From NCBI RefSeq assembly GCF_003053725.1, contig NZ_QAYC01000006.1:124001-188000 (forward strand): a DNA stretch of 64,000 nt. The letters are read 5' to 3'. The translations under genes and the position numbers were made by a program. The notes beneath the pieces are model-generated. The model saw nothing but the letters and a program-made list of their open reading frames with translations, had not been told where the DNA came from and did not search any database. This document shows positions 25,467 to 41,508 of this stretch, one piece after another; within the stretch, counting starts at the first letter, position 1, and each line of letters begins with the position of its first letter. Source of the DNA: Rhodovulum kholense. GTDB taxonomy: Bacteria > Pseudomonadota > Alphaproteobacteria > Rhodobacterales > Rhodobacteraceae.

Positions 25467-25471
25467 GGGCG

Positions 25472-26306: not shown

Positions 26307-26321
26307 TTAACCTCTTGTTAG
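26307..26321 (+). promoter_or_regulatory. CtrA-like box upstream of the GTA promoter
   Basis: TTAA-CCTCTTG-TTAG matches CtrA consensus TTAA-N7-TTAA at all but the last base. It lies 12 bases before the predicted -35 element of the GTA promoter. CtrA is known to be needed for GTA gene expression in Rhodobacter capsulatus; direct binding here is inference. The rest of the 377-base gap after cutA (26089-26300) shows no gene. Confidence 0.5.
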
Positions 26322-26332
26322 CATTAAACTTC

Positions 26333-26361
26333 TTGACTCTGCGAGCGGTCTGGGGTATACC
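26333..26361 (+). promoter_or_regulatory. sigma70-type promoter of the GTA cluster
   Basis: TTGACT (26333-26338), a 17-base spacer and TATACC (26356-26361) make one of the best housekeeping-type promoters in the window. The start would be near 26368. No gene precedes the GTA cluster on this strand. Confidence 0.65.
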
Positions 26362-26368
26362 TTCGGAC

Positions 26369-26476
26369 ATGCTGGAAGACGTGGGTTTGGCGGCCCGGGG
26401 GACCCCCGGAGGCCGCCTTTTTGTTGTCTTCTTCCTGCGCTGGGCGGACCAATCAGGCAGATGCGATGACAAATGA
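26369..26476 (+). other. possible leader reading frame spanning the GTA leader hairpin
   Basis: An ATG at the predicted transcript 5' end opens a 35-codon frame (MLEDVGLAARG...) that runs through the leader hairpin and overlaps the start of g1. It would have to be translated leaderless. Ribosomes moving through it would disrupt the hairpin. Coding is not otherwise supported. Confidence 0.2.
26389..26422 (+). terminator. intrinsic terminator in the GTA leader (attenuator candidate)
   Basis: GGCGGCC (26389-26395) pairs with GGCCGCC (26411-26417) around an inner CGGGGG/CCCCCG stem, followed by TTTTTGTT. It lies between the predicted promoter and the first GTA gene with no gene in front of it. 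Its natural reading is a premature stop that must be overcome for GTA expression, or the end of a short RNA of about 55 bases. Confidence 0.8.
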
Positions 26477-26822
26477 TCCCTCTCCTGAAGCGGGCGGCGC
26501 GGCGGCGTGGGCGCTGCTTGAGGAAGCAGAAGAACATTACAGGCGCACGATCCGCGCCCTGAACGAACTGATCGAGGAAATCGAGGCCGGCAATTCCGAG
26601 CGTGCCCGCATGCTGCGCGGGGCGTTGAACGATCTCGGGAAGGCGGCACAGACGGCGTTCGACGAACGGCAGCGGGTTGAGAGGCGGCTGAATGCAGAAA
26701 GCGGGTCTGAAGGCGGAATCCAAGCGCTTGATCTTGAACAGGCACGCCTTGAAGTCGGGCGCCGACTGGATCGCCTGCGCGACACCCGAGATGCAGGCCG
26801 CCTTTCTGGAGGGGTTGAATGA
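26466..26822 (+). CDS. GTA small terminase subunit (gp1-like)
   Basis: The 118-residue protein is mostly helical with a charged coiled-coil-like stretch (EEAEEHYRRTIRALNELIEEIE). Position directly before the large terminase, and size, match ORFg1 of the Rhodobacter capsulatus GTA, which encodes a small terminase lacking the DNA-specificity expected for phage pac recognition. The start at ATG 26466 is inferred from context; the ribosome-binding site (AGG) is weak. Its end overlaps the annotated start of the next gene by 131 bases. Confidence 0.75.
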   Translation: MTNDPSPEAGGAAAWALLEEAEEHYRRTIRALNELIEEIEAGNSERARMLRGALNDLGKAAQTAFDERQRVERRLNAESGSEGGIQALDLEQARLEVGRRLDRLRDTRDAGRLSGGVE

Positions 26823-28092
26823 CTCGGCGCTGCTGGCGCTGCCATATCTCTTCGAGTTCTGGGCGTTGCCGCATCAGCTGCCGCCCGAAGGCGACTGGCG
26901 CTCCTGGGTGATCATGGGCGGCCGGGGCTCGGGCAAGACGCGGGCCGGATCTGAATGGGTCCGGTCGCAGGTCGAGGGCGCAAGGCCGCTTGACGAAGGC
27001 CGGGCCCGGCGGGTGGCCCTGGTCGGCGAGACCGTCGACGAGGCCCGCGAGGTCATGGTGTTCGGCGAAAGCGGCATTCTGGCCTGTTCGCCTCCCGACC
27101 GGCGGCCGAACTGGGAAGCAACGCGGCGGCGGCTGGTCTGGCCGAATGGTGCGGTGGCGCAGGTGTTTTCGGCGCATGACCCGGATTCGCTGCGTGGGCC
27201 GCAATTCGATGCCGCCTGGTCGGACGAGCTGGCAAAATGGAAGCGGGCCGAAGAGACCTGGGACATGTTGCAGTTCGGGCTGCGGCTGGGGCAGGCTCCG
27301 CGGCAATGCGTGACGACGACGCCGCGCAACGTGGCAGTGCTGAAGTCGATCCTCGCGAACCCCTCGACCGTGGTCACCCACGCGCCGACCGAGGCCAACC
27401 GGGCCAATCTGGCGGCCTCGTTCCTCGAGGCGGTCCGGACCCGCTATGCGGGCACCCGGCTCGGGCGGCAGGAACTTGACGGCGTGCTTCTTGACGAAGC
27501 GGACAGCGCGCTTTGGACGCTGAGCCGGATCGAGGCGCTGAGGGTCGACGAGGCGCCGCCGCTGGACCGGATCGTGGTTGCCGTCGATCCGCCGGTCACG
27601 AGCCGGGACAGCTCGGACGAATGCGGGATTGTGGTGGCCGGGGTCAGGATGCAGGGGCCGCCGCAGACCTGGTGCGCCTATGTGCTGGAGGATGTCAGCA
27701 TCGGCGGCGTCGCCCCGACGGCCTGGGCGACGGTCGCCATCGAGGCGATGGAGCGCTTTGGCGCCGAACGGCTGGTCGCCGAGGTGAACCAGGGCGGCGA
27801 TCTGGTCGAGACGGTGATCCGCCAGCTCGACCCCATGGTGCCTTTCCGCGCGGTTCGCGCGACGCGGGGCAAGATCGCCCGGGCCGAGCCGGTGGCCGCG
27901 CTTTACGAGCAAGGCCGGGTCAGGCACCTGCGGGGTCTGCAAGTTCTGGAAGAGCAGATGTGCCACATGACGGCGCGGGGGTACGAGGGCAAGGGCAGCC
28001 CGGACCGGGTGGATGCGCTGGTCTGGGCGATCAACGACCTGATGATCGCCCCGGCGGCGCAGTGGCGGCGGCCGAGGGTGCGCGGGCTCTAA
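26692..28092 (+). CDS. GTA large terminase (DNA-packaging ATPase/nuclease, gp2)
   Basis: The 466-residue motor protein fills GTA heads with host DNA. Walker A is GGRGSGKT (76-83), Walker B is DAAWSDE (D178, E179), and the RNase H-like nuclease core starts at VVAVDPPVTS with later acidic residues in PDRVDALVWA. ATG 26692 has GAGAGG before it but overlaps g1 heavily. A TTG at 26749, close to the conserved ADWIA start of homologues, is an alternative. Confidence 0.93.
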   Translation: MQKAGLKAESKRLILNRHALKSGADWIACATPEMQAAFLEGLNDSALLALPYLFEFWALPHQLPPEGDWRSWVIMGGRGSGKTRAGSEWVRSQVEGARPLDEGRARRVALVGETVDEAREVMVFGESGILACSPPDRRPNWEATRRRLVWPNGAVAQVFSAHDPDSLRGPQFDAAWSDELAKWKRAEETWDMLQFGLRLGQAPRQCVTTTPRNVAVLKSILANPSTVVTHAPTEANRANLAASFLEAVRTRYAGTRLGRQELDGVLLDEADSALWTLSRIEALRVDEAPPLDRIVVAVDPPVTSRDSSDECGIVVAGVRMQGPPQTWCAYVLEDVSIGGVAPTAWATVAIEAMERFGAERLVAEVNQGGDLVETVIRQLDPMVPFRAVRATRGKIARAEPVAALYEQGRVRHLRGLQVLEEQMCHMTARGYEGKGSPDRVDALVWAINDLMIAPAAQWRRPRVRGL

Positions 28093-28238: not shown

Positions 28239-29414
28239 ATGAAATTCAAACTTTTCCGCCGCGCGGCGGAACGACTGCCCGAAACCAAGGCCTCGGCCAC
28301 CGGCCCGGTGATCGCCTGGGCGGGGGCGGGGCGCGCGGCCTGGACGCCCCGCGACACCAGTTCGCTGATCAGGTCCGGGTTCAACGGCAATCCCGTGGGC
28401 TTTCGCGCGGTCAAGCTGATCGCGGAATCCGCGGCGGCGCTGCCGCTGATCTGCCAGGACGACGAGCGACGCTACGAGGCGCATCCCGTGCTGGAGTTGC
28501 TGAAGCGGCCGAACCCGGCGCAGGGACGCGCCGAATTGCTGGAGGCGCTTTACGGGCAGTTGCTGCTGTCGGGAAACGGCTATCTCGAGGCCGTGGGCGG
28601 CGAGGGCGGGCTGCCGTTCGAGCTGCATGTGCTGCGGTCGGACCGGATGCGGCTGGTGCCGGGGGCCGATGGCTGGCCGGTCGCCTATGACTACATGGTG
28701 GGCGCGCGCAAGCACCGGTTCGACATGACCGGGGCGGTTCCGCCGATCTGCCACATCAAGAACTTCCATCCGCAGGACGACCATTACGGGTTGTCGGCGA
28801 TGCAGGCGGCCGCCACGGCCATCGACGTGCACAACTCTGCTTCGCGCTGGTCGAAGGCGCTCTTGGACAACGCCGCGCGGCCCTCCGGGGCAATCGTCTA
28901 TCACGGCGGCGACGGTCAGTCGACGCTGAGCGAGGAACAATATGCCCGGCTGCAGGACGAGATGCTGTCCTATCATCAGGGCGCGGCCAATGCCGGGCGG
29001 CCGATGTTGCTGGAGGGCGGGCTCGACTGGAAGCCGATGGGGTTCTCGCCCTCGGACATGGAGTTTCAGAAGACCAAGGAGGCCGCGGCCCGCGAGATTG
29101 CCACGGCCTTCGGTGTGCCGCCCATGTTGTTGGGCATTCCGGGCGAGGCAACTTACGCGAATTACCAGGAGGCAAACCGTGCCTTTTACCGGCTGACCGT
29201 GGTCCCGCTGGTGGCCAAGGTCGCCGGAGCGGTGGCCGAGTTCCTGACCCATTTCGACGGCGGCGCGGTCGCGCTCCGGCCCGATCTCGATCAGGTGCCG
29301 GCGCTGGCCGCAGAGCGGGATACGCAATGGAAGAGAATCTCCGAAGCCGACTTCCTGACCGAGGACGAGAAACGCGCGCTGCTCGGCCTGCCGAGGCGGC
29401 CGGAGGGCAGGTGA
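28239..29414 (+). CDS. GTA portal protein (gp3)
   Basis: The 391-residue protein is an HK97-type portal, the dodecameric ring through which DNA enters the head. Characteristic segments are NPVGFRAVKLIAESAAALPL, ELLEALYGQLLLSGNGYLE, HIKNFHPQDDHYGLSAMQAA and FGVPPMLLGIPGEATYANYQ. A good ribosome-binding site (CGGAGGA) precedes the ATG. Confidence 0.95.
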   Translation: MKFKLFRRAAERLPETKASATGPVIAWAGAGRAAWTPRDTSSLIRSGFNGNPVGFRAVKLIAESAAALPLICQDDERRYEAHPVLELLKRPNPAQGRAELLEALYGQLLLSGNGYLEAVGGEGGLPFELHVLRSDRMRLVPGADGWPVAYDYMVGARKHRFDMTGAVPPICHIKNFHPQDDHYGLSAMQAAATAIDVHNSASRWSKALLDNAARPSGAIVYHGGDGQSTLSEEQYARLQDEMLSYHQGAANAGRPMLLEGGLDWKPMGFSPSDMEFQKTKEAAAREIATAFGVPPMLLGIPGEATYANYQEANRAFYRLTVVPLVAKVAGAVAEFLTHFDGGAVALRPDLDQVPALAAERDTQWKRISEADFLTEDEKRALLGLPRRPEGR

Positions 29415-29659
29415 GGGTGGCCGGGCAACGGTCCGGCTCGCGGTTTCTCTACGCCCCGTTCGACGCGACGCATATCCGGATCGAGGCCAGCGAGCGGGTG
29501 ATGGAGGAGCGCTGGAGCGCCCTCGAATACCGCCTGAAACGCATCGAGGAGATGCTGGACCAGATCGAAAAGCGCATGTGGCTGACGGTCTACGGGATCG
29601 TGGCGGTGATCCTGGCCGAGGGTATCGCCTCGATCCTGTCCGCCATTTCGACGCCTTAG
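29411..29659 (+). CDS. GTA gp3.5-like small membrane-anchored protein
   Basis: The 82-residue protein starts at a GTG that overlaps the portal stop (GTGA). It has a charged helical middle and a single C-terminal hydrophobic helix (about 57-78, WLTVYGIVAVILAEGIASIL). Size and place match ORFg3.5 of the R. capsulatus GTA, called a head-formation protein in annotations (recalled). GGAGGG sits close before the start. Confidence 0.7.
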   Translation: MRVAGQRSGSRFLYAPFDATHIRIEASERVMEERWSALEYRLKRIEEMLDQIEKRMWLTVYGIVAVILAEGIASILSAISTP

Positions 29660-29679
29660 AAGCGAAGAGGACAGAGGTG

Positions 29680-30246
29680 ATGAAGGAGTACGAAAATGGC
29701 ATCGCGCTCGAACGCAAGTTCTGCAAGAACGATGCCTTGCCGTTGGCGCTGAAGGACGGCGCGGTGATCGAGGGCTATGCCTCGGTGTTCGGCGCCGCCG
29801 ATTACGGGGGCGATATCGTCCAGAGCGGCGCCTACACAGCCTGCCTGCGGCAGATGGGCAGCGAAGGTCGGCGGGTGAAGATGCTTTGGCAGCACGACCC
29901 TTGCGAGCCGATCGGCGTCTGGGACGAGGTGCGCGAGGATGCCCGCGGGCTGTATGTCAAGGGCCGTATCCTGACCGATGTGACACGGGGCCGCGAGGCG
30001 GTGGCGCTGGTCGCGGCGGGTGCCATCGACGGGTTGTCGATCGGCTATCGGACCAAGCGCGCCGGCAAGGATGACAGCGGGCACCGTCTGCTGGCCGAGC
30101 TGGAGCTGTGGGAGGTGTCGCTGGTGACCTTTCCGATGCTGGCCGACGCGCGTGTCGGCACCAAGGCGGAGGGCACCGCGGAGGAGCTCTTGCGCGACCT
30201 GGCGGAGGCCTTTGCGGGCGCCCGCCGGATGCTGGCCGAAGGCTAG
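29680..30246 (+). CDS. GTA prohead protease (gp4)
   Basis: The 188-residue HK97-type protease processes the capsid precursor during head maturation. The IEGYASVFGAADYGGDIVQSGAY start, MLWQHDPCEPIGVW with the catalytic histidine, and GLSIGYRTKRAG with the serine are visible. The ATG follows AGAGG; a GTG one codon earlier is possible. Confidence 0.9.
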   Translation: MKEYENGIALERKFCKNDALPLALKDGAVIEGYASVFGAADYGGDIVQSGAYTACLRQMGSEGRRVKMLWQHDPCEPIGVWDEVREDARGLYVKGRILTDVTRGREAVALVAAGAIDGLSIGYRTKRAGKDDSGHRLLAELELWEVSLVTFPMLADARVGTKAEGTAEELLRDLAEAFAGARRMLAEG

Positions 30247-30285
30247 CCCCCTCTTCAAGTCTCATTCCCAGACAGGACTGCCAAC

Positions 30286-31473
30286 ATGACCGAGACCGAA
30301 ATCAAGGCCGGGCGGGCCCATGGTCCCGCTATGGAGATGCGTGAAGCTCTGGAGGACTTCCTGATCGATTTCAGGGGCTTCCAGTCGGAAGTGAAATCGA
30401 GACTCAAGCAACAGGAAGAGCGACTGACCATGTTCGACCGGAAATCACAAGTCACGGCGGGTCGTCCCGCCCTGTCCCGCGCCGTCGAGATCGAGGTGCC
30501 CCACAAGAAGGCCTTCGGCGCCTATCTGAGGTCTGGAGACGACGATGCGCTGCGCGGGCTCGAATTCGAGGGCAAGGCCATGTCGACGGCCGTCGCCGGC
30601 GAGGGCGGCTATCTGATCGACCCCGAGACGGCCAGTACGATCAAGTCGGTGCTGACCGCAACGGCCTCGATCCGGTCGATTGCCCAGGTGGTGACGGTCG
30701 AGGCCAGTTCCTATGACGTGTTGGTCGATCATTCGGATACCGGCTCGGGCTGGTCGAGCGAGACCGGCAGCCAGGTCGAGACCGGGACGCCACAGATCGA
30801 GCGGGTGACGATCCCGCTGCACGAACTGTCGGCGATGCCGAAGGTCAGCCAGCGCCTGCTGGACGACAGTGCCTTCGATATCGAGGGTTGGCTGGCTGGC
30901 CGGATTGCCGACAAGTTCTCGCGGGCCGAGGCCGCGGCCTTCATTCTGGGCGACGGGACCGACAAGCCGCGCGGGTTTCTCAGCCATCCCAAGGTCGCCG
31001 AGGCGAGCTGGAGTTGGGGAAGCCTGGGCTATGTCGCGACCGGCGCCGATGGCGATTTCGACGTGGGCGCGCCTTCGGACGCGATCCTCGATCTGGTCTA
31101 TTCGCTGGGCGCGGTCTATCGGGCGAATGGCAGCTTCGTGATGAACTCGAAGACCGCGGGCGCGGTGCGCAAGATGAAGGATGCGGACGGGCGGTTCCTG
31201 TGGTCGGACGGTCTGGCCGCGGCCGAGCCCGCGCGGCTGCTGGGTTATCCGGTGCTGATCGCCGAGGACATGCCCGACATCGCGCCGGACGCGACGGCCA
31301 TTGCCTTTGGCGACTTCCAGGCCGGCTATACCGTCGCCGAGCGCCCCGATCTGCGGGTGCTGCGCGATCCCTTCTCGGCCAAGCCGCATGTGCTTTTCTA
31401 CGCCACCAAGCGCGTGGGCGGCGATGTCAGCGACTTCGCCGCAATCAAGGTGCTGAAGTTCTCGGTCGCCTGA
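30286..31473 (+). CDS. GTA major capsid protein (gp5)
   Basis: The 395-residue HK97-fold capsid protein begins with a coiled-coil delta domain (about 12-60, EDFLIDFRGFQSEVKSRLK) that the neighbouring protease should remove. The core carries GEGGYLIDPETAS, the E-loop region GWSSETGSQVETGTPQ, IADKFSRAEAAAFILGDG and PVLIAEDMPDIAPD. It is the most abundant particle protein. Confidence 0.95.
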   Translation: MTETEIKAGRAHGPAMEMREALEDFLIDFRGFQSEVKSRLKQQEERLTMFDRKSQVTAGRPALSRAVEIEVPHKKAFGAYLRSGDDDALRGLEFEGKAMSTAVAGEGGYLIDPETASTIKSVLTATASIRSIAQVVTVEASSYDVLVDHSDTGSGWSSETGSQVETGTPQIERVTIPLHELSAMPKVSQRLLDDSAFDIEGWLAGRIADKFSRAEAAAFILGDGTDKPRGFLSHPKVAEASWSWGSLGYVATGADGDFDVGAPSDAILDLVYSLGAVYRANGSFVMNSKTAGAVRKMKDADGRFLWSDGLAAAEPARLLGYPVLIAEDMPDIAPDATAIAFGDFQAGYTVAERPDLRVLRDPFSAKPHVLFYATKRVGGDVSDFAAIKVLKFSVA

Positions 31474-31530
31474 CACCGGCGGATCGGGTCCCCACCAGCA
31501 AACCCGGCCCCGGTACCGGGCCGGTGAGAT

Positions 31531-31594
31531 GCGCGCCGGCCCCCCGGGGCCCGCCCCGGTGCTCCCTCCATCGGAGCGGGACGGGCCGGCGCGC
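31531..31594. repeat. large inverted repeat between GTA capsid and adaptor genes
   Basis: GCGCGCCGGCCC (31531-31542) and GGGCCGGCGCGC (31583-31594) are perfect 12-base complements enclosing further small stems (GCTCC/GGAGC at 31561 and 31573). Another hairpin, CCGGCCCCGGTACCGGGCCGG, precedes it at about 31504. The 160-base gap is non-coding. Such structure after a capsid gene may protect or cut mRNA so that capsid is overproduced relative to tail proteins. Confidence 0.6.
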
Positions 31595-31633
31595 GTCAAC
31601 CTCGCGTCGAGCGACAGCGGAGAGACGGAAAAG

Positions 31634-32230
31634 ATGATGCTGATAGAGCAGACGACGGTGGCGGCTGCGGCGCTTCCGCTTGCGCAGTTCAAGGCGCATC
31701 TGCGCCTCGGAACCGGCTTTGCCGATGCCGGGGATCAGGATGCCTATCTGGAGACGCTGCTGCGCGCGGCGCTGGCGGCCATCGAGGCGCGGACCGGCAA
31801 GGTGCTGATTTCCCGAAGTTTCAGCTATGTGCTTTATGGCTGGCGCCGGGGCGGCAGTCAGTCCTTGCCGGTCGCTCCGGTGCGGGCGGTGACCGAGATC
31901 CGGATCGTCGACCGAGGCGGCGTGGCGGTGCCGGTCGCCCCCGAGCGCTATCACTTGCTGGCCGATGCGCATCTGCCGGTGGTGCGGGGCACGGGCGGCG
32001 CGATGCCCGGCATTCCCTTCGAGGGCAGCGCCGAGATCGATTTCGAGGCGGGCTTCGGTCCCGACTGGGCGGCGGTGCCCGAGGATCTGGGTCATGCCGT
32101 GCTGCTGCTGGCAGCCCATTATTACGAGAACCGGCTGGAGCAGACCGTCGGCGGCGGCGCGATGCCCTTCGGGATCGCAGCCCTGACCGACCGCTGGCGC
32201 AGGCTGCGGCTGACACCGGGGGGCGCGTGA
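31634..32230 (+). CDS. GTA head-tail adaptor (gp6, connector)
   Basis: The 198-residue protein starts LPLAQFKAHLRLG after a short N-terminus and has the gp6-type connector pattern AYLETLLRAALAAIEARTG, ending VLLLAAHYYENRLEQT. It forms the ring beneath the portal. Two adjacent ATG codons (31634, 31637) are possible starts, both behind GGAAAAG. The stop overlaps the next start. Confidence 0.88.
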   Translation: MMLIEQTTVAAAALPLAQFKAHLRLGTGFADAGDQDAYLETLLRAALAAIEARTGKVLISRSFSYVLYGWRRGGSQSLPVAPVRAVTEIRIVDRGGVAVPVAPERYHLLADAHLPVVRGTGGAMPGIPFEGSAEIDFEAGFGPDWAAVPEDLGHAVLLLAAHYYENRLEQTVGGGAMPFGIAALTDRWRRLRLTPGGA

Positions 32231-32571
32231 TGGCGCGGTCGCCGATCCTGAGCCGCCGCCTGGCGCTGGAGGTGCCGGTGCAGGTCGCCGATGGTGCCGG
32301 AGGCTTTTCCGAAACCTGGGTGACCCGCGGCACGCTGTGGGCCGAGGTTGCCGTACGCAGCGGGGGCGAGCAGGTCGGCGAAGAGCTGGCCTTGTCGCGG
32401 GTGCTGTACCGGATCGTGGTCCGCGGCGCGCCTCCGGGCGCGCCGGAACGGCCCGTCGCCGGTCAGAGGTTCCGCGAGGGACAGCGGCTCTTCCGCATCC
32501 GTGCGGTGACCGAGCATGACGCGCGCGGGCACTATCTGGCCTGCCTTGCCGAAGAGGAGTTGGCGGCATGA
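32230..32571 (+). CDS. GTA head-closure protein / stopper (gp7)
   Basis: This 113-residue protein has the head-tail adaptor beta-barrel pattern (LEVPVQVADGAGGFSETWV, LWAEVAVRSGGE, YRIVVR, QRFREGQRLFRIRAV). It seals the filled head. The ATG overlaps the adaptor stop (TGATG); a GTG three bases earlier is less likely. Confidence 0.85.
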   Translation: MARSPILSRRLALEVPVQVADGAGGFSETWVTRGTLWAEVAVRSGGEQVGEELALSRVLYRIVVRGAPPGAPERPVAGQRFREGQRLFRIRAVTEHDARGHYLACLAEEELAA

Positions 32572-32978
32572 GCTATGGCGTGGCGGCCGCCTTGCAGGCC
32601 GCGATCTTTCAGCGGATTTCGGGGCATGCCGCCGTGTCCGCGATCGTGGGCGAGGCGGTCTATGACGCCGTGCCCGCGGGCCGTCTTCCGCCGATCTATG
32701 TAAGTCTCGGACCGGAAGAGGTCCGCGATGCCTCCGACAAGGGCGCAAACGGCGCGCTGCATCTTGTGACGATCTCGGTCGTCAGCGAAGAGGCCGGCTT
32801 CGCCCGGGCGAAGGCCGCTGCCGGAGCCATTTCCGATGCCCTGACCGAGGCGCCGCTGGCGCTGGCTCGGGGCAGGGTGGTCGGACTTTGGTTCGACCGC
32901 GCCCGCGCCCGACGTGTCGGCGCGCAGGATCAGCGCCGCATCGACCTGCGGTTTTCCGTCCGGGTCGAGGACGATTGA
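32568..32978 (+). CDS. GTA tail terminator (gp8, DUF3168)
   Basis: The 136-residue protein matches DUF3168 tail-completion proteins: ALQAAIFQRISGHAAVSAIVG, PPIYVSLGPEEVRDAS and HLVTISVVSEEAGF. It caps the tail tube and joins it to the head. It overlaps gp7 by the ATGA-type junction. Confidence 0.88.
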   Translation: MSYGVAAALQAAIFQRISGHAAVSAIVGEAVYDAVPAGRLPPIYVSLGPEEVRDASDKGANGALHLVTISVVSEEAGFARAKAAAGAISDALTEAPLALARGRVVGLWFDRARARRVGAQDQRRIDLRFSVRVEDD

Positions 32979-33001
32979 ATGACATACCTGGAGTACGCGA
33001 A

Positions 33002-33415
33002 ATGACGGCGCAGAACGGCAAGGATCTTCTCATCAAGGTCGATATCTCGGGCGCGGGAGATTTCTCGACCTTTGCGGGTCTGCGGGCCTCGCGCATCAGC
33101 TTCAACGCCGAGCCGGTGGACGTGACCAGTCTGGAAAGCCAGGGCGGGTGGCGCGAGCTCTTGTCGGGCGCGGGGGTCAAGTCGGCCGCCATCACCGGAT
33201 CGGGGGTCTTCAAGGATGCCGAGACCGACGCTCGCGCCCGCGAGGTCTTCTTCGAGGGTCTGATGCCGGTCTTCCAGCTGGTGATCCCGGACTTCGGGAT
33301 TGTCGAGGGACGGTTTCAGGTCAGCAGCCTGGAATATGCCGGCAGCCACAATGGCGAAGCCACCTATGAAATGACGCTTGCTTCGGCCGGTGTCCTCAAC
33401 TTTACGGCGATGTAA
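33002..33415 (+). CDS. GTA tail tube protein (gp9)
   Basis: The 137-residue major tail protein carries GKDLLIKVDISGAGDF, FNAEPVDVTSLESQGGWREL and GSGVFKDAETDARAREVF, the TP901-1-type tube pattern. The ATG follows TGGAG. Its order directly after the terminator is that of the R. capsulatus GTA. Confidence 0.92.
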   Translation: MTAQNGKDLLIKVDISGAGDFSTFAGLRASRISFNAEPVDVTSLESQGGWRELLSGAGVKSAAITGSGVFKDAETDARAREVFFEGLMPVFQLVIPDFGIVEGRFQVSSLEYAGSHNGEATYEMTLASAGVLNFTAM

Positions 33416-33417
33416 GC

Positions 33418-33750
33418 ATGCCAAACCCCCATGCAGGCGAAGTCGCGCTGATGGTCAACGGAGAACGGCAGGTTCTCAAGCTTACGCTTGGTGCCTTGGC
33501 CGAGCTGGAGGCGGCGCTGGGCGCCGACACCCTGCTGACCCTGATCGAGCGCTACGAGGAAGGGCATTTCGCGACGCGCGACGTGATTGCGCTGTTGCTG
33601 GCCGGGCTTCGGGGAGGCGGCTGGAAGGGCACGACCGCCGACCTTGCCGAAGCCGATATCGGCGGCGGTCCGATCGCCGCGGCCCAGGCCGCCGCGCAGC
33701 TTCTGGCCCGGGCCTTCACCTTGCCGGAGGCAAAGCAAGATGGGCTTTGA
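33418..33750 (+). CDS. GTA tail assembly chaperone (gp10)
   Basis: The 110-residue protein belongs to the GTA_gp10 family: GEVALMVNGERQVLKLTLGALAELE and ARDVIALLLAGLRGGG-like helices. It assists loading of the tape measure into the tube. It starts 2 bases after the tail tube stop and overlaps gp10.1 by 11 bases. Confidence 0.85.
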   Translation: MPNPHAGEVALMVNGERQVLKLTLGALAELEAALGADTLLTLIERYEEGHFATRDVIALLLAGLRGGGWKGTTADLAEADIGGGPIAAAQAAAQLLARAFTLPEAKQDGL

Positions 33751-33934
33751 CTGGGGCGGCCTGATGCGGGCGGGCATTCGCGGTCTCGGTCTGAGACCCT
33801 CCGAGTTCTGGGAGCTCACACCCGCGGAACTGATGTTGATGCTGGGGGCCGAAGGCGGGCCTGCCCCCATGAGCCGTGCGCGGCTGGAGGAACTGGCCCG
33901 CGCCTTTCCGGATAAACTGCGGGACGAAGGATAG
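33740..33934 (+). CDS. GTA tail assembly chaperone, small (gp10.1)
   Basis: The 64-residue protein (MGFDWGGLMRAGIRGLGLRP, then FWELTPAELMLMLG) matches the second tail-chaperone gene of alphaproteobacterial GTAs. It lies in the +1 frame relative to gp10 and has its own ATG, so separate initiation is more likely than frameshifting. Confidence 0.8.
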   Translation: MGFDWGGLMRAGIRGLGLRPSEFWELTPAELMLMLGAEGGPAPMSRARLEELARAFPDKLRDEG

Positions 33935-33937
33935 GCC

Positions 33938-34606
33938 ATGGCCGAGCCTGAGGATATCGAGGCTTTCGAGGCGCAACTGGACGCGCTGGAGACGACCTTG
34001 GGGGGAGCGAGCGGTACGGCCGCGGCCTTCGAGGTGGAACTTGTGCGGATGCGGGACTCGCTGACGCTGACGAACCGCGAGGTCAGTTCGTTGTCGAATG
34101 CCATCGGTCGCGGCCTGAGGGGGGCTTTCGACGGGCTGGTCTTCGACGGGATGAAACTGTCGGATGCATTGAAATCGGTCGCAAACTCGGTTGCGAATGC
34201 GACCTATGCTGCGGCGGTCAAGCCGGTGCAGAACCAGCTGGGCGGCCTGCTTGCCGGCGGTATCGAGGGGCTTCTGGGCGCCGCACTTCCCTTTGCCCGG
34301 GGTGCGCCCTTCTCGCAAGGTCGGGTCATTCCCTTTGCCTCGGGCGGCATCGTCGGCCAGGCGACCTATTTCCCGATGCGGGGCGCGACCGGACTGATGG
34401 GCGAGGCGGGGCCGGAAGCGATCCTGCCGCTGTCGCGCGGGGCCGATGGCCGGTTGGGGGTCCGGTCGGACGGGAGCGGGTCGTCGCGCCCGATTCAGAT
34501 CGTCATGAACATCAGCACGCCTGACGTTCAGGGCTTCGCGCGCAGCCAAAGCCAAATCGCGGCCGAAATGAGCCGCCTGCTGTCGCGCGGCCAGCGAAAC
34601 AGGTGA
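33938..34606 (+). CDS. GTA tape measure protein (gp11)
   Basis: The 222-residue protein has a helical N-terminal half (LDALETTLGGASGTAAAFEVEL) and a C-terminal FASGGIVGQATYFPMRGATG plus LMGEAGPEAILPLSRG segment typical of tail tape measures. It is far shorter than phage tape measures (usually over 600 residues), which fits the very short GTA tail. It starts 3 bases after gp10.1. Confidence 0.88.
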   Translation: MAEPEDIEAFEAQLDALETTLGGASGTAAAFEVELVRMRDSLTLTNREVSSLSNAIGRGLRGAFDGLVFDGMKLSDALKSVANSVANATYAAAVKPVQNQLGGLLAGGIEGLLGAALPFARGAPFSQGRVIPFASGGIVGQATYFPMRGATGLMGEAGPEAILPLSRGADGRLGVRSDGSGSSRPIQIVMNISTPDVQGFARSQSQIAAEMSRLLSRGQRNR

Positions 34607-34621
34607 AGGAGGACAGAGCCC

Positions 34622-35254
34622 ATGGCATTTCATGAAGTCCGCTTCCCGGCCAATCTGAGTTTCGGGTCGGTCGGCGGTCCGGAGCGCCGAACAGAGATCG
34701 TGACGCTGGCCAATGGTTATGAGGAACGCAACACCCCCTGGGAACATGCGCGGCGGCGCTACGATGCCGGTGTCGCAATGAGTTCGCTCGACGATGTCGA
34801 GCAGTTGGTCGCCTTCTTCGAGGCACGGCGCGGCCAGCTTTACGGCTTCCGCTGGAAGGACTGGTCCGACTACAAGTCTTGCCGTCCGTCGGGCGAGGTT
34901 GGTTCCGGCGATCAGGTGATCGGGATCGGCGATGCCGACACCGTCCAGTTTCAGTTGAGGAAAACCTATGCTTCGGGCGGCCAGTCCTATGTGCGCCCGA
35001 TCGCCAAGCCGGTGGCCGGTACGGTGACCGTCGCGGTCGACGGACGCACGTTGTTCGCCCCGGTCGATTTCGGCGTCGAGGCCTCGACCGGGATCGTGAC
35101 GCTGGCCGAGCCCCCGGCGATGGGCGCGGTGGTGACCGCCGGGTTCGAGTTCGACGTGCCGGTGCGGTTCGATACCGATCGGATCCAGACCTCGGTCGAG
35201 AGTTTCCGGGCGGGCGAAGTCCCCTCGGTCCCGGTCGTGGAGCTGCGGATCTGA
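34622..35254 (+). CDS. GTA distal tail protein (gp12, DUF2460)
   Basis: The 210-residue protein is a DUF2460 distal tail protein: FHEVRFPANLSFGSVGGPERRTEI, RRRYDAGVAM and ARRGQLYGFRWKDWSDYKS. It connects tube and baseplate. The ATG follows AAGGAGG, a strong ribosome-binding site. Its stop overlaps gp13. Confidence 0.93.
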   Translation: MAFHEVRFPANLSFGSVGGPERRTEIVTLANGYEERNTPWEHARRRYDAGVAMSSLDDVEQLVAFFEARRGQLYGFRWKDWSDYKSCRPSGEVGSGDQVIGIGDADTVQFQLRKTYASGGQSYVRPIAKPVAGTVTVAVDGRTLFAPVDFGVEASTGIVTLAEPPAMGAVVTAGFEFDVPVRFDTDRIQTSVESFRAGEVPSVPVVELRI

Positions 35255-36141
35255 TGCCGCTGTCGGCGACATTGCAGGCCCATCTGGAAAGTGGCGCAAC
35301 GACGCTTGCCAGGGCCTGGGCGCTGACGCGCCAGGACGGCGTGGTCATGGGCTTTACCGATCACGACCGCGATCTGGCCTTCGCGGGCATCACCTTCCGC
35401 GCCGATACCGGCATGACGGCACGGGCGCTGAGCCAGACCACCGGCCTTTCGGTCGACAACTCGGCGGCAGTCTCGGCGCTGAGTTCGGAGGCGATCACCG
35501 AAGAGGACATTTCGGCCGGGCGCTATGACGGCGCGGCGCTGAGGATCTGGATGGTGAACTGGCGCGATCCCGTCCAGCATGCGCTGATCTTTACCGGCAC
35601 GCTGGGCGAGATGACCCGGACGGCCGGCGCCTTCGAGGCCGAACTGCGCGGTCTGGCCGAGGGGCTGAACCAGCCGCAGGGTCTGGTCTATCAGGCGCCC
35701 TGCGGGGCGGTTCTGGGCGATGCGGCCTGCCGCTTCGACACCGCTCATCCCGATTTCTCGACTGTCGTTCCTGTGGCAAGCGTGACCGGACGACGCCTGT
35801 TCCGGATCGCCGGACTGTCGGGTTTTGCGCCGCGCTGGTTCGAACAGGGGCGACTTGAGGTGGTGTCGGGGCCAGCGGCGGGGCTGGTGGGCGCGATCAA
35901 GGGAGACCGCGAGGAAAGCGGGGTCCGGGTGATCGAGCTCTGGACCGAGATCCGCGGCACCGTCCTGGCGGGCGACAGTCTGCGGCTGGTCGCGGGCTGC
36001 GACCGGCGGGCAGAGACCTGCCGGGACAAGTTCGATAATTTCCTCAACTTCAGAGGGTTTCCGCATATTCCGGGCGAGGACTGGCTGATGAGCTATCCGA
36101 CCCGCTCGGGGCTGAACGACGGGGGAAGTCTGAAATCATGA
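35254..36141 (+). CDS. GTA baseplate hub (gp13, DUF2163)
   Basis: The 295-residue protein joins an N-terminal DUF2163 domain (GFTDHDRDLAFAGITF, about 1-150) and a C-terminal Phage_BR0599 domain ending NFRGFPHIPGED. Four cysteines, C150, C159, C249 and C256, are placed to bind the iron-sulphur cluster reported for hub proteins of the R. capsulatus GTA. The start overlaps the gp12 stop. Confidence 0.93.
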   Translation: MPLSATLQAHLESGATTLARAWALTRQDGVVMGFTDHDRDLAFAGITFRADTGMTARALSQTTGLSVDNSAAVSALSSEAITEEDISAGRYDGAALRIWMVNWRDPVQHALIFTGTLGEMTRTAGAFEAELRGLAEGLNQPQGLVYQAPCGAVLGDAACRFDTAHPDFSTVVPVASVTGRRLFRIAGLSGFAPRWFEQGRLEVVSGPAAGLVGAIKGDREESGVRVIELWTEIRGTVLAGDSLRLVAGCDRRAETCRDKFDNFLNFRGFPHIPGEDWLMSYPTRSGLNDGGSLKS

Positions 36142-36581
36142 CCATCATGGGAGAACGCGCCGCCAATGAGGCGCGCCGCTGGATCGGGACGCCCTACCGG
36201 CATCAGGGATCGGTGCGCGGCGCCGGGGCGGATTGCCTCGGGCTTCTGCGCGGTGTCTGGCGGTCGCTTTACGGTCGCGAGCCGGAAGAAGTGCCGCCCT
36301 ATACGCCGGACTGGTCCGAGCCTCAGGGCGAAGAGATCCTGTGGCGCGCGGCCGGGCGGCATCTGATCGCCAAACCGCTGGAAGAGGCTGCCGAGGGCGA
36401 TGTGATCCTGTTCCGGATGCGCGACGACACTGTTGCCAAACATCTGGGCGTTCAGGGACGGGTCGAAGAGGCGCCGAGTTTCATCCACGCCTATTCGGGG
36501 CGCGGGGTGGTCGAAAGCTCGCTTTCCCAGCCCTGGGCGCGGCGGATCGTGGCCCGCTTTGCCTTTCCCGAGGGGATCTGA
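36138..36581 (+). CDS. GTA cell-wall peptidase (gp14, NlpC/P60)
   Basis: The 147-residue protein has the NlpC/P60 nucleophile C33 (GADCLGLLRG) and histidines H102 (KHLGV) and H117 (FIHAYSGRGVVES) that complete the active site. It hydrolyses peptidoglycan peptides during DNA delivery. It overlaps gp13 by 4 bases. Confidence 0.93.
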   Translation: MTIMGERAANEARRWIGTPYRHQGSVRGAGADCLGLLRGVWRSLYGREPEEVPPYTPDWSEPQGEEILWRAAGRHLIAKPLEEAAEGDVILFRMRDDTVAKHLGVQGRVEEAPSFIHAYSGRGVVESSLSQPWARRIVARFAFPEGI

Positions 36582-36584
36582 CCC

Positions 36585-39500
36585 ATGGCGACGATCGTTT
36601 TGTCGGCGGCCGGAGCCGCAGCCGGCTCGGCGCTGGGCGGGTCGGTTCTGGGGCTGTCGAGCGCGGTTCTTGGACGGGCCGTGGGCGCCACGCTGGGCCG
36701 GGTGATCGACCAGCAGCTTCTGGGCAGCGGATCGCAGGCGGTCGAGACCGGCAAGGTCGAGAGGTTTCGCCTGACCGGCGCCAGCGAGGGCGCGGCCGTC
36801 GGCCGGCTATGGGGGCGGTCGCGGGTGGCGGGTCAGGTGATCTGGGCCTCGCGCTTCCGCGAGACGGTCAGCACGCATGGCGGCGGAAAAGGCGCGCCGA
36901 GCAAGCCCAAAGTCAAGGAATACAGCTATTCGGTCAGTCTGGGGATCGCACTCTGCGAGGGCCAGATCGCCCGGGTCGGCCGGATCTGGGCCGATGGCGC
37001 CGAGATCGAGCCGCAATCCTTGACTCTGCGCGTCTATGACGGGTCCGAAGACCAGCTGCCCGATGCGCTGATCGAGGCGGTCGAAGGGCCGGGCCGGGCT
37101 CCGGCCTATCGCGGCATCGCCTATGTGGTAATCGAGGACATGGAGCTGGCGCGCTTCGGCAACCGCGTGCCGCAACTGTCCTTCGAGGTCGTGCGGCGGG
37201 CGGCGGGAACGACGGACGATCTGCCCGCGCTGGTGCAGGGCGTGTCGCTGATCCCGGGCACCGGCGAATATGCCCTGGCGACAACGCCGGTTCATTTCTC
37301 TTACGGGCCGGGTCAGGCGGTATCGGCGAACGTCAATTCGCCAAGCGGCAAGACCGACATCGCCACATCGCTTGACATGCTGCAGGGCGAATTGCCCAAC
37401 GTGGGCTCGGTTTCGCTGGTGGTGAGCTGGTTCGCTTCGGATCTGCGCGCGCCGGTCGCGCGGCTTCGGCCGAAGGTCGAACAGACCGGCTTCGACGGCA
37501 ACCCTATGCCCTGGCGGGTGGCGGGTCTGAGCCGGAGCGCGGCCGAGATCGTGCCCCATGTCGACGGGCGACCGATCTATGGTGGCACACCTGCCGATGC
37601 CAGCGTGATCGAGGCGATCCAGGCGCTGAAGGCGCGCGGTCAGGCCCCGGTTTTCTACCCGTTCATCCTCATGGACCAGCTGCCGGGCAATGCGCTGATC
37701 GACCCTTATACGGGCGCGGCAGGTCAGCCGCCCTTGCCCTGGCGCGGCCGCATCACGCTGAATTTCGCTCCTGCCCATCCCTTCACCACGGATGGCACGC
37801 GGTTCGCGGAAGACGAGGTTGCGCTGTTCTTCGGCACGGCACGGCCGGAGGATTTTACGGCCTCGGGACAGAGCGTTGCCTATGCCGGAACCGATGACTG
37901 GAGCTATCGACGCTTCATCCTGCACTATGCCCATCTTTGCGCGTTGGCGGGGGGCGTGTCGGCCTTCTGCATCGGGTCCGAGCTGCGCGGTCTGACGACG
38001 ATCCGCGGCGGGTCCGGGCGATTTCCGGCGGTTGATGCCCTGCGTGCGCTGGCCGGGGACGTGCGTGCCATCCTCGGGCCCGGCTGCAAGATCGGCTATG
38101 CCGCCGACTGGAGCGAATATTTCGGCTATCACCCCGAGACCGCTCCGGGCGACGTGCATTTCCATCTCGATCCGCTCTGGGCGGACCCGGCGATCGACTT
38201 CATCGGGATCGACAACTACATGCCCCTGTCGGACTGGCGCGACGGCGACGATCATGCCGATGCCGCCTGGGGCGCGATCCACGATCTGGACTATCTGCGC
38301 GCGAATATCGAGGGTGGAGAAGGGTTCGACTGGTATTATGCCTCGCAGGCCGCCCGCGATGCGCAGATCCGAAGCGCGATCACCGATGGCACCCATGGCG
38401 AGCCCTGGGTCTGGCGCTACAAGGACATCCGCAGCTGGTGGCAGCGCGCCCATCACGACCGGATCGATGGGGTTCGCAGTGCGACGCCGACGGCCTGGGT
38501 TCCGCAATCGAAACCGATCTGGTTCACAGAACTCGGGTGCCCGGCGGTCGACAAGGGGACCAACGCGCCCAACCTTTTCAGCGACGCCAAATCCTCGGAA
38601 AGCGCGTTGCCGCCCTATTCGACCGGCGCGCGCGACGACCTGATCCAGCACCAGTATCTGCGGGCGCTGCTGGGCTATTGGGCCGACCCGGCGGTGAACC
38701 CGGTTTCGCCGCTTTACGGCGGGCCGATGGTGGATCTGTCGCGGGCGCTTGTCTGGGCCTGGGACGCGCGGCCCTATCCGCAGTTTCCCGGGAACCGGAC
38801 GCTTTGGTCGGATGGCGACAATTACGGGCGTGGGCACTGGCTGAACGGGCGTGCTTCGGCGCAGGCTCTGGATGCCGTGATCCGCGAGATCTGCACCGCC
38901 TCGGGGGTGACCGATCTGGATGTGTCCGATGTCTACGGGCTGGTACGGGGCTATGCGGTCAGCGACCTGGCCGGGGCACGGTCGGCGTTGCAGCCCTTGA
39001 TGCTGGCCTATGGCATCGAGGCTGCCGAGCGCGACGGCCGGATCGTGTTCTTCAATCGCGACGGGCGGGCCGGGGTCGTCCTCGACCCCGCCGAGCTGGC
39101 CCGGACCGGTGATCTGGCCGGCGATATCGAACACAGCCGGACCCCGGGGGCCGAGACCGCCGGACGGGTGCGCCTGTCCTTTGTCGAGGCCGACGGCGCC
39201 TATGAGACCCGGGCGGCCGAGGCGATCTTTCCCGACGAGGCCAGCCGGTCGGTCTCTGTCAGCGAAGTGCCGCTGGTTCTGACTGCGGCCGAGGGGCAGG
39301 CCGTCGTCGAGCGCTGGCTGTCGGAATCGCGAGTGGCGCGCGATCGGGTGCGGCTGGCCTTGCCGCTGTCGACGCTGTCCGTGGGGGCGGGCGATGTGAT
39401 GCAGTTGCCATCCGGCGACTACCGGATCGACCGGGTCGATCTGGCGGATACGCGGCAGATCGAGGCAGTGCGGGTCGAGCGGGGACTTTACCTGCCGCCG

Positions 39501-40484
39501 CGCTTCGAGGATCGCGGCGTGGCCCAGGCCGCGTTTGTTGCGCCGGTGCCGGTGCATGCGGTTTTCCTCGATTTGCCGCTTCTGACCGGCGAGGAAGTCC
39601 CCCATGCGCCCCATGTCGCGGCGGTCGCGACCCCCTGGCCCGGTACGGTCGACGTCTACACGGCGATCGAGGATGCGGGCTACACGTTGAACGCGACGCT
39701 CGACCGGTCCGCAGTGATCGGACTGACCGAGACGCCGCTTGCGGCAGCCGAACCCGGCCGTTGGGACCGGGGGCCCGCGCTTCGGGTCAAGCTTGCGGCG
39801 GGCAGTCTCGCCTCGGTCGGCGAGGCCGATCTGTTGGCCGGGGCCAATGTCGCGGCGATCGGGGCGGGCGGACCCGGGGGCTGGGAGGTATTCCAGTTCG
39901 CCGAAGCCGAACTGATCGGGCCGCGAACCTACGAGCTGAGGCTGAGGCTTCGCGGGCAGGCCGGGACCGAGGCCGACATGCCCGAGATCTGGCCCGTGGG
40001 AAGCACCGTCGTGCTGCTTGATGCGCGGGTGCCTCAGATCGCGCTTGCCGCGTCGGCGCGGGGGCTTGCACGGCATTACCGGATCGGCCCCGGGACGCGG
40101 GCCTATGACGACCCGAGCTACGACCATATCCGGCTGGCCTTCGACGGGATCGGGCTTCGGCCCTATGCCCCCTGTCATCTTAAGGCGGTGCGAGCGCCCG
40201 GCGGCGATCTGAAGCTGAGCTGGGTACGCCGCACGCGGGTGGACGGCGACAGTTGGGCCTCGGTCGAGGTGCCGCTGGGCGAAGAGCGCGAGCTTTATAC
40301 GGTGCTGGTGAAGTCCGGCGAAGGTGCGGTGCTGCGGACCGAAACTGTCGCCGCAACAGGCTGGACCTATACCGCGGCCATGCAGGCGGCAGACGGGATG
40401 ACAGCGCCCTACGCCCTCGAGGTGGCGCAACTGTCCGAGCAGTTCGGACCCGGACCCTATCGGAGGATCGAGATCGATGGCTGA
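36585..40484 (+). CDS. GTA baseplate megaprotein (gp15) with TIM-barrel domain
   Basis: The 1299-residue protein starts with a hydrophobic glycine-rich helix (about 5-45). A TIM-barrel-like domain of the GTA_TIM type fills about 420-730 (FILHYAHLCALAGGVSAFCIGSEL, PAIDFIGIDNYMPLSDW, PIWFTELGCPAVDKG). A phage-tail domain follows from about 790 to 960. It forms the tip of the tail that contacts the recipient cell. The strong reading frames on its opposite strand are compositional shadows. Confidence 0.95.
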   Translation: MATIVLSAAGAAAGSALGGSVLGLSSAVLGRAVGATLGRVIDQQLLGSGSQAVETGKVERFRLTGASEGAAVGRLWGRSRVAGQVIWASRFRETVSTHGGGKGAPSKPKVKEYSYSVSLGIALCEGQIARVGRIWADGAEIEPQSLTLRVYDGSEDQLPDALIEAVEGPGRAPAYRGIAYVVIEDMELARFGNRVPQLSFEVVRRAAGTTDDLPALVQGVSLIPGTGEYALATTPVHFSYGPGQAVSANVNSPSGKTDIATSLDMLQGELPNVGSVSLVVSWFASDLRAPVARLRPKVEQTGFDGNPMPWRVAGLSRSAAEIVPHVDGRPIYGGTPADASVIEAIQALKARGQAPVFYPFILMDQLPGNALIDPYTGAAGQPPLPWRGRITLNFAPAHPFTTDGTRFAEDEVALFFGTARPEDFTASGQSVAYAGTDDWSYRRFILHYAHLCALAGGVSAFCIGSELRGLTTIRGGSGRFPAVDALRALAGDVRAILGPGCKIGYAADWSEYFGYHPETAPGDVHFHLDPLWADPAIDFIGIDNYMPLSDWRDGDDHADAAWGAIHDLDYLRANIEGGEGFDWYYASQAARDAQIRSAITDGTHGEPWVWRYKDIRSWWQRAHHDRIDGVRSATPTAWVPQSKPIWFTELGCPAVDKGTNAPNLFSDAKSSESALPPYSTGARDDLIQHQYLRALLGYWADPAVNPVSPLYGGPMVDLSRALVWAWDARPYPQFPGNRTLWSDGDNYGRGHWLNGRASAQALDAVIREICTASGVTDLDVSDVYGLVRGYAVSDLAGARSALQPLMLAYGIEAAERDGRIVFFNRDGRAGVVLDPAELARTGDLAGDIEHSRTPGAETAGRVRLSFVEADGAYETRAAEAIFPDEASRSVSVSEVPLVLTAAEGQAVVERWLSESRVARDRVRLALPLSTLSVGAGDVMQLPSGDYRIDRVDLADTRQIEAVRVERGLYLPPRFEDRGVAQAAFVAPVPVHAVFLDLPLLTGEEVPHAPHVAAVATPWPGTVDVYTAIEDAGYTLNATLDRSAVIGLTETPLAAAEPGRWDRGPALRVKLAAGSLASVGEADLLAGANVAAIGAGGPGGWEVFQFAEAELIGPRTYELRLRLRGQAGTEADMPEIWPVGSTVVLLDARVPQIALAASARGLARHYRIGPGTRAYDDPSYDHIRLAFDGIGLRPYAPCHLKAVRAPGGDLKLSWVRRTRVDGDSWASVEVPLGEERELYTVLVKSGEGAVLRTETVAATGWTYTAAMQAADGMTAPYALEVAQLSEQFGPGPYRRIEIDG

Positions 40485-41190
40485 CACCCCGAACCTGTCG
40501 CTTCCGCTGCTGCAGGCGGCGCAGTCTCAGAAACATGTGACCGTGAACGAGGCGCTGACCCGGCTCGACGCGCTGGTGCAGCTTCGGCTGCAAAGCGTCA
40601 CCGTTTCGGCCCCGCCAATGGGGGCGCCGGACGGTCAGGCCTGGGGCGTTCCGGCCGGGGGCGAGGGCCTTTGGGAGGGAAAGGACGGCCGGATCGCGGT
40701 GCAGGACAATGGCGGCTGGGTCTTCGTCGCCCCGCTGCCCGGCTGGCGGGCCTATGTGGTCGATGCGGGCGCGGACATGCGCTGGACCGGCAGCGCCTGG
40801 GCCGCCATCGGCGCGGCGGTTTCGGCCTCGGGCGCAGGTATTGCGCTGCGGGTGCTGGAGTTCGACCATGTCCTGACGCCCGGAGGGGCGCAGGACACGG
40901 GGGTGGTGATCCCGTCCCATGCGACCGTTTTCGGCGTGACCGGGCGGGTGATCGAGGCGATCTCGGGCACGCTTTCCGCCTGGCGGCTGGGCGCGGACGG
41001 ATCGGACAACCGATTCGGCGCGGGCCTGGGCCTGGGGCTCAATTCCTATGTGCACGGGGTTCTGGGCTCGCCCCTGACGGGCTACGCGCCGATGCCGCTG
41101 ACCCTGACGCCCGAGGGCGGCGACTTTTCCGGCGGCACCGTGCGGCTTGCCGTCCATTTCGCCGAACTGACGATTCCGGCCAGCGTCTGA
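40477..41190 (+). CDS. DUF2793-domain protein, putative GTA fibre/tail accessory
   Basis: The 237-residue protein starts with the DUF2793 pattern (LSLPLLQAAQSQKHVTVNEALTRLD, then WEGKDGRIAVQDNGGWVFVAPL). A C-terminal beta-rich half follows (RVLEFDHVLTPGGAQDTGVVIPS). DUF2793 occurs in the tail fibre encoded outside the main cluster in R. capsulatus; here it overlaps gp15 by 8 bases. A receptor-binding or fibre role is inferred from this. Confidence 0.8.
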   Translation: MADTPNLSLPLLQAAQSQKHVTVNEALTRLDALVQLRLQSVTVSAPPMGAPDGQAWGVPAGGEGLWEGKDGRIAVQDNGGWVFVAPLPGWRAYVVDAGADMRWTGSAWAAIGAAVSASGAGIALRVLEFDHVLTPGGAQDTGVVIPSHATVFGVTGRVIEAISGTLSAWRLGADGSDNRFGAGLGLGLNSYVHGVLGSPLTGYAPMPLTLTPEGGDFSGGTVRLAVHFAELTIPASV

Positions 41191-41199
41191 GGCGGCGGG

Positions 41200-41508
41200 A
41201 TGCGTCCAGTGCTTCATGGAGATGCAGTGGCCGCGGCGCGGGCGCTTTATGCCTTGCCGCAGGCCGACCGTGCCGGGGCGATCCAGGCGATGCTCTTGCG
41301 GGCCGAGGCGGCGGATGCCTATCGCAAGCGGTTCGGGCGCGGCCATCCGCGCTGGGGAAACGGATCGCTGATGGCACTGGTTCAGCGCGGGGCGCTGCCG
41401 CCCGAACCCTCACTGGACGAGCCGGAGTATTGTCGCTGCCTGGCGCAGGTTTTCGCGGCGCTGGCGGCCTGGCGGGACTGGAAGGCGGCCTTCCCGCAGC
41501 CGGGCTGA
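41200..41508 (+). CDS. small hypothetical protein at the end of the GTA operon
   Basis: I do not recognise the 102-residue protein. It is helical and alanine-rich with two adjacent cysteines (EYCRCLAQVF) and an RKRFGRGHPRWGNGSLM segment. It lies 9 bases after the DUF2793 gene on the same strand, so it is probably part of the GTA transcript. Confidence 0.65.
   Translation: MRPVLHGDAVAAARALYALPQADRAGAIQAMLLRAEAADAYRKRFGRGHPRWGNGSLMALVQRGALPPEPSLDEPEYCRCLAQVFAALAAWRDWKAAFPQPG

Follow-up and report, generated by a model that had tools for sequence, protein, structure and literature searches.

A conserved terminator in the leader of the Rhodobacteraceae GTA operon and its possible bypass by GafA

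The GTA locus and its leader

The window analysed (the whole stretch of 64,000 nt) comes from a Rhodovulum genome whose closest named relative among the matches listed is R. visakhapatnamense (TerL 97% identical), and it carries a GTA cluster on the + strand. Pfam and NCBIfam searches found TerL, an HK97-type portal, a protease, a capsid protein and the GTA megatron protein in this cluster, which identifies it as a GTA, and the first gene, g1, had no Pfam or NCBIfam match. The cutA gene (PF03091), at 25780-26088, is divergent from the GTA operon, and the nearest recognised + strand gene, encoding a DUF6455 protein, ends at 25732, approximately 600 nt ahead of the -35 element, so that the leader terminator described below serves no upstream gene. 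The initial annotation stated that no gene lies upstream, which is correct for the + strand. Two ORFs are located upstream of cutA, at 25197-25466 and 25340-25732; the second is the DUF6455 gene (PF20056) and the first appeared similar by eye. The features of the locus are listed below.

26307..26321, + strand: CtrA-like box TTAA-N7-TTAG, read from the sequence, 11 nt ahead of the -35 element
26333..26338, + strand: -35 element TTGACT, read from the sequence, matching 5/6 consensus positions
26345..26350, + strand: spacer element GCGGTC (consensus ACG[C/G]TC), a candidate GafA-C/GafZ loading site suggested by conservation
26356..26361, + strand: -10 element TATACC after a 17-base spacer, read from the sequence and aligned in alignment A2, matching 4/6 consensus positions
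26367..26369, + strand: putative transcription start, 6-8 nt past the -10 element
26368..26385, + strand: conserved initially transcribed box CATGCTGGAAGACGTGGG, from alignment A1
26369..26476, + strand: 35-codon frame crossing the hairpin, from the ORF list; judged non-conserved
26376..26384, + strand: 5' strand of the predicted outer helix P1, within the box (folding, covariation)
26389..26417, + strand: intrinsic terminator stem-loop P2, predicted at -23.2 kcal/mol (RNA folding, covariation)
26418..26422, + strand: U-tract TTTTT, read from the sequence, the expected 3' end of an RNA of about 55 nt
26422..26430, + strand: 3' strand of predicted P1, directly after the U-tract (folding; 7/9 pairs in this species, up to 9/9 in relatives)
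26435..26460, + strand: further predicted hairpin region before g1 (single-sequence folds of 42/83 leaders; weak in this species)
26466..26822, + strand: g1, first GTA gene, small terminase-like by position, from the ORF list
26692..28092, + strand: g2, large terminase (PF03237/PF17289), ORF from its first ATG, the real start possibly lying further downstream
28239..41508, + strand: remaining GTA cluster (portal, protease, capsid and others, to megatron NF048004); the named genes rest on Pfam/NCBIfam domain matches and the other genes are ORFs only

The CtrA-like box, the promoter with 17-base spacing and the hairpin followed by TTTTT that the initial annotation had reported before g1 could all be read directly in the sequence. 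Its description of the promoter as strong was an overstatement, the -10 element being poor, as is expected of an activated promoter. A simple promoter/terminator scan of the window reported neither the GTA promoter nor the leader terminator, probably because the -10 element lacks the final T that the scan required and because the stem contains a bulge. The stem of P2 begins approximately 20 nt past the putative start, ahead of g1. RNA folding of the 64 kb, with both strands included, gave 24 terminator-like sites, P2 among them, and on the + strand within the GTA cluster it found only weaker terminators, at 32088 and 39528. In R. capsulatus, the start was reported to lie within a probe covering 76-125 bp upstream of g1 (PMC6363796). 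Membership in a known RNA family was considered and rejected, since an Rfam search of 25500-27500 yielded no match even with E values up to 1 allowed.

The CtrA-like box was found at the same position in 12/16 Rhodovulum leaders, and a box of this type in 6/67 other leaders, and the R. capsulatus GTA promoter was reported not to be bound by CtrA (PMC6363796). These results weaken the proposal of a CtrA-type first gate, and the box was rejected as a general GTA feature outside Rhodovulum.

Conservation and covariation of the leader within the family

TerL loci were collected independently of the leader, from the best 80 of 278 relatives, which were Rhodobacterales genera or unclassified alphaproteobacterial MAGs, and from the genus Rhodovulum. 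Removal of duplicates (L083 and L086-L093) left 87 non-redundant loci. A second, distant TerL (L098, G007:C1:3432577-3433215), 44% identical and perhaps belonging to a prophage, was present in one Rhodovulum genome and was set apart from this sample.

The box, searched for with at most 5 substitutions and with fewer where no TTGAC-like sequence lay upstream, was found in 83/87 loci; of the remaining four, two (L042 and L048) are cut off by the end of a contig and two (L019 and L038) lack it. Its consensus across loci is CATGCTAGAAGAAGTGGG. Many boxes contain TGcTAGAAG, which resembles an extended -10 sequence, might thus bear on a sigma-dependent promoter-proximal pause of the lambdoid Q type, and is degenerate in most Rhodovulum leaders (AGCTGGAAG). 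In the promoter, TTGAC is invariant across the 53 rows of alignment A2, and the ACG[C/G]TC spacer motif was matched at least at 5/6 positions in 52/82 family promoters.

A terminator whose stem starts 18-21 nt from the box start, with a U-run following the stem, was found in 80/83 box-bearing leaders, compared with 21/1660 shuffled leaders and 32/2369 random windows of the same loci; the leaders that failed this positional criterion were L035, L041 and L045. RNA folding without the position requirement found a terminator in 83/85 loci, in some of them elsewhere. Folding had replaced an ungapped stem finder, which gave a match in 34/85 loci, many of them misplaced, because it did not handle the bulge in the stem. 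In the P2 stem, 93.6% of cells were paired and 9/11 pairs were changed on both sides, a count that ignores kinship; 0/500 shuffles scored as high on any of five measures, and slid versions of the stem had 28.6-59.4% of cells paired. Hence the hairpin, whose conservation in close relatives and compensatory changes across Rhodobacterales had been named in the initial annotation as points to check, is both kept and covarying. The promoter-proximal terminator that the initial annotation had noticed is confirmed, and its conservation is well supported at the level of sequence. In two MAGs, the distance between leader and TerL exceeds the usual one by about 85 nt.

The 35-codon leaderless frame pointed out in the initial annotation was rejected as a gene, since among the 83 leaders its AUG is present in 52 and absent in 31 and its open length varies from 5 to >97 codons.

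A second pairing, between the box and the segment directly after the U-tract (P1), coexists with P2 in the minimum-energy fold of this leader. The P1 register, the best among those scanned, has a mean of 7.42/9 pairs over 83 loci, with L071 and L097 fitting it badly. Among 45 distinct strand pairs, 7.02 pairs were formed versus 6.50 (sd 0.10) when strands were permuted, with 0/10000 permutations as high, and at box position 13 the combinations A-U, C-G, G-U, U-G and G-C were seen, with 39/45 paired. An alignment-based count, in which some rows are misaligned, gave a more modest result: pairing was 85.6% versus 82.0% and covariation was 0.288 versus 0.232 (0/500 shuffles as high), with 4 versus 2.8 double-change pairs (104/500 as high) and 15 versus 12.7 further pair types (27/500). 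P1 is thus a moderately supported outer helix, as judged from folding and covariation. Because its 3' strand lies past the U-tract, P1 is possible only in read-through RNA. The deviant leader L037 still keeps the P1 pairing.

A covariance model extending from the -35 element to the U-tract (R1) was built from 53/83 leaders. In the source genome R1 detected one strong site (90.5 bits, the next best scoring 16.9), and in an order-wide search it matched 217/292 family genomes, representing 92/112 genera; all 292 genomes share the family label of the source genome and are taken as Rhodobacteraceae in the broad sense. Little was gained from two order searches, which covered 1 and 7 genomes. TerL was detected in 280/292 family genomes, and the leader was matched in 211 of the 280 TerL-positive genomes and in 6 of the 12 TerL-negative ones. 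In these six (G035, G125, G153, G157, G178 and G297), the TerL search at E 1e-60 may have failed because the contig is broken, the cluster has decayed or TerL has been replaced. Leader and TerL positions were compared among the matches listed (150 per search), and in all 108 genomes common to both lists leader and TerL share a strand, with the leader 260-417 nt upstream. Given this placement in 108/108 genomes, R1 describes the GTA leader and not a general terminator.

No R1 match was obtained in 69/280 TerL-positive family genomes. Twenty stretches were viewed and sorted by eye, one (G270) being dropped as model-positive; of the resulting 19/69, four have a terminator at the expected place, four have a box-like sequence without a terminator and 11 have neither, suggesting that some lineages can do without the gate or that those clusters are decaying. 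In L121, L126, L130 and L134, a box-like sequence is retained without a recognisable terminator, so that the box may serve a separate function.

Promoters and terminators at TerL loci outside the family

The survey covered 73 TerL loci from other families. In 29 of them the 900 nt ahead of TerL contain a strong terminator with TTTT, and in the other 44 they do not. The terminator is preceded, at a distance of at most 110 nt, by a promoter-like sequence in 16/29 loci versus 140/620 shuffled upstream stretches. In 12/73 outside loci, a gene for a GafA/GafZ homologue precedes TerL by at most 1.5 kb, in the same orientation. Six of these (L183, L184, L188, L200, L207 and L208) have, in order, gaf, a TTGAC-N17-TA promoter, a hairpin with a U-run, and TerL; the hairpin starts 29-56 nt after the -10 element (124 nt in L200), and the U-run of L208 is only TTTCC. 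Four others (L139, L180, L181 and L190) have gaf and a promoter and no strong leader terminator, and two (L182 and L203) were assigned to neither layout class.

The ACG[C/G]TC motif was matched at least at 5/6 positions in 10/22 outside promoters versus 0.46 expected from shuffles, and 9/10 of these promoters are gaf-linked; the 22 promoters are those picked in the gaf-linked and terminator surveys plus L181, and the motif was framed after some of them had been seen. In one other family, five loci (L151, L175, L176, L178 and L179) have TTTACA-N17-TA promoters with a terminator about 8-13 nt past the -10 element, and the terminator arms differ in a compensated way, as judged by eye. The ACG[C/G]TC motif was absent from those TTTACA-type promoters of this group that were tested. 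The published Caulobacter palindrome gave only scattered matches in the collected loci, and none of the phage records has a close TerL, all 220 being <60% identical.

GafA and the control of read-through

The source genome contains a single DUF6456 gene, a 386-aa ORF with an N-terminal HTH and a C-terminal DUF6456 domain, which is gafA, and it is preceded by a TTAAC-N6-GTAAC box of the type reported for gafA (PMC6363796). DUF6456 was found in 291/292 family genomes and, among 14 control genomes, only in Caulobacter vibrioides. Being near-universal, gafA cannot discriminate leader-bearing from leaderless genomes by its presence, and loss of the leader does not track loss of gafA.

The closest described system is GafY/GafZ-IHF of Caulobacter crescentus (Tran and Le 2024, PMC11150451), which has in common with the present locus a homologous regulator, a GTA cluster (CcGTA), a putative factor element between -35 and -10 and a terminator to bypass. 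GafZ, which is homologous to the C-terminus of GafA, was reported there to let RNA polymerase pass terminators, to depend on the putative element between -35 and -10 and to travel with the polymerase together with NusA/G/E, and the authors raised the possibility that GafA, too, is an antiterminator whose activity has been overlooked (PMC11150451). The terminator tested in that report (terGTA) consists of three 150-bp repeats past the first gene, whereas here a compact intrinsic terminator lies in the leader before g1, and GafY plus GafZ in Caulobacter correspond to one fused GafA here (PMC11150451). With terGTA absent, GafZ still had a 4-fold effect, which a terminator in the 229-nt Caulobacter leader might account for. 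GafA itself was described as activating initiation via the omega subunit of RNA polymerase, and the RcGTA fragment with -10, -35 and TSS is bound by GafA-C (PMC9638019); such activation could by itself account for the dependence on GafA. The RcGTA promoter corresponds to the promoter described here and is served by the same protein family; unlike the present analysis, the main texts of PMC6363796 and PMC9638019 make no mention of a terminator, hairpin or leader. No report of a GTA leader terminator appeared in the titles and abstract openings among the literature matches listed.

GafA-dependent processive antitermination at the promoter-proximal GTA terminator is considered to be the best explanation, with a probability of about 0.72. 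Homology and layout are its basis, and they suggest GafA as most likely the required antiterminator for GTA read-through. Sequence supports the element, its position, conservation, covariation, single copy and association with TerL, the presence of gafA, and the linkage of gaf, promoter and terminator outside the family. Where transcription starts, that it ends in the leader, that GafA brings about the bypass and what P1 does are inferred. The GTA operon would then have two gates at a single site. Transcription would start at a sigma70-type promoter whose spacer, between -35 and -10, carries a protein-binding element, and by default RNA polymerase would halt about 55 nt on, at the intrinsic terminator, giving a very short RNA. 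In cells that produce GafA, the DUF6456 domain at its C-terminus, which corresponds to GafZ, would bind the promoter spacer, and GafA would move onto RNA polymerase, probably with Nus factors, rendering it termination-resistant. The modified polymerase would pass the leader terminator and transcribe the 15 kb cluster, in the manner of Q/AlpA-style processive antitermination. In the read-through RNA, the box would pair past the U-tract to form P1, closing a stem around the former terminator; 5' end protection, or service as the RNA part of the antitermination complex, are candidate functions of this helix.

The interpretation offered in the initial annotation is partly supported. Its view of the terminator as a second gate agrees with the sequences (80/83 leaders), antitermination being the best explanation; classical attenuation is disfavoured by the short stretch of about 20 nt before the stem and by the pairing of the box after the U-tract.

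A first alternative, which we regard as unlikely, is that the promoter yields a short trans-acting RNA, with a 5' seed and the terminator, and that read-through into the GTA genes is incidental. A conserved 18-nt 5' box followed by a terminator and U-tract does resemble a minimal small RNA, but the element is upstream of TerL in 108/108 comparable genomes among the matches listed, with one strong copy in the source genome. Furthermore, the box covaries with a cis segment present only in the read-through RNA, so that part of the conservation of the box is explained by cis pairing; this pairing argues against a purely trans-acting small RNA as well as against classical attenuation. A stem-loop that mainly shields the 5' end of the GTA mRNA, with weak, unregulated termination and GafA acting at initiation only, is also judged improbable, somewhat more so. 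P1 and P2 would indeed cap the 5' end of the read-through RNA, and GafA activates by contacting omega (PMC9638019), but a U-run follows the stem in 80/83 leaders, which a protective hairpin would not need, and the Caulobacter protein with the homologous domain acts as an antiterminator (PMC11150451).

Attenuation coupled to a ligand, to RNA or to translation, in which the terminator is blocked by an alternative fold or by a ribosome that reads the 35-codon frame, appears very improbable. The terminator does lie ahead of the first gene and an AUG is present at the box in 52/83 leaders, but only about 20 nt precede the stem, the pairing is past the U-tract and not with the terminator arms, the minimum-energy fold of this leader contains both the box helix and the terminator, the frame varies in length and lacks its AUG in 31/83 leaders, and Rfam gave no match within 25500-27500 at E values up to 1. 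Hardly any weight is given to an insulator that stops stray upstream read-through with the true GTA start downstream of the terminator, since, while a terminator before a lytic operon would lower leak, a conserved promoter and box stand upstream of the stem at fixed spacing, the RcGTA start lies within 76-125 bp upstream of g1 (PMC6363796) and the nearest recognised same-strand gene ends about 600 nt before the -35 element.

If GafA-dependent antitermination holds, the GTA leader has counterparts in known late-gene switches. The Pseudomonas aeruginosa AlpA-alpB promoter-tB system has a binding element between -35 and -10, where the GTA promoter has its candidate element, and a terminator before the first gene, and shares apparent ppGpp responsiveness and lysis that is on in a subset of cells (PMC7969949). 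AlpA is called unlike other antiterminators in sequence by its paper, and no helix around tB is mentioned in the text available for that system, unlike P1 here (PMC7969949). In lambda, the gene order is Q-pR'-tR', and tR' is a promoter-proximal terminator with its short RNA; in the six gaf-linked outside loci, gaf likewise adjoins the promoter. A binding element at the promoter is present in the lambdoid Q systems (lambda Q, Q21, Q82; PMC7171158), and the spacer motif is the candidate for one at the GTA promoter. Unlike the lambdoid antiterminators, GafA has no Q-family match (PF06530, PF03589, PF06323), a Pfam search at E up to 0.01 having matched only its HTH and DUF6456 domains. To judge by a reference title, a further publication deals with antitermination in the GTA of Bartonella.

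The kind of control proposed is already known (Q, AlpA, GafZ), and the variant consists of a leader terminator with an outer helix, which is present in most examined family genomes and of which the literature searched gave no description. A broader proposal is tentative, and we would put it at less than even odds: alphaproteobacterial GTAs may keep an ancestral late-operon module (gaf, an ACG[C/G]TC-spacer promoter and a promoter-proximal terminator) with DUF6456 as a separate Q-like antiterminator class, and the Rhodobacteraceae leader may be a structured RNA whose P1, formed only after bypass, is part of the antitermination machine or a read-through-specific lock at the 5' end of the mRNA.

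The on-switch is important because producing cells die when they release GTAs, and it has long been asked why GTAs are made by so small a share of cells. A conserved terminator at the start of the operon makes the suggestion that GafA is an antiterminator (PMC11150451) readily testable with reporters. The covariance model and the spacer motif provide sequence handles for finding GTA control regions, and the finding ties a domesticated GTA element to phage late-gene control.

A further structure is predicted beside the g1 Shine-Dalgarno sequence. In many folded relatives (L046, L055, L026 and others), a predicted CUCGUGC/GCAUGAG stem adjoins it, about 60-90 nt past the box, and this hairpin is a possible translational gate.
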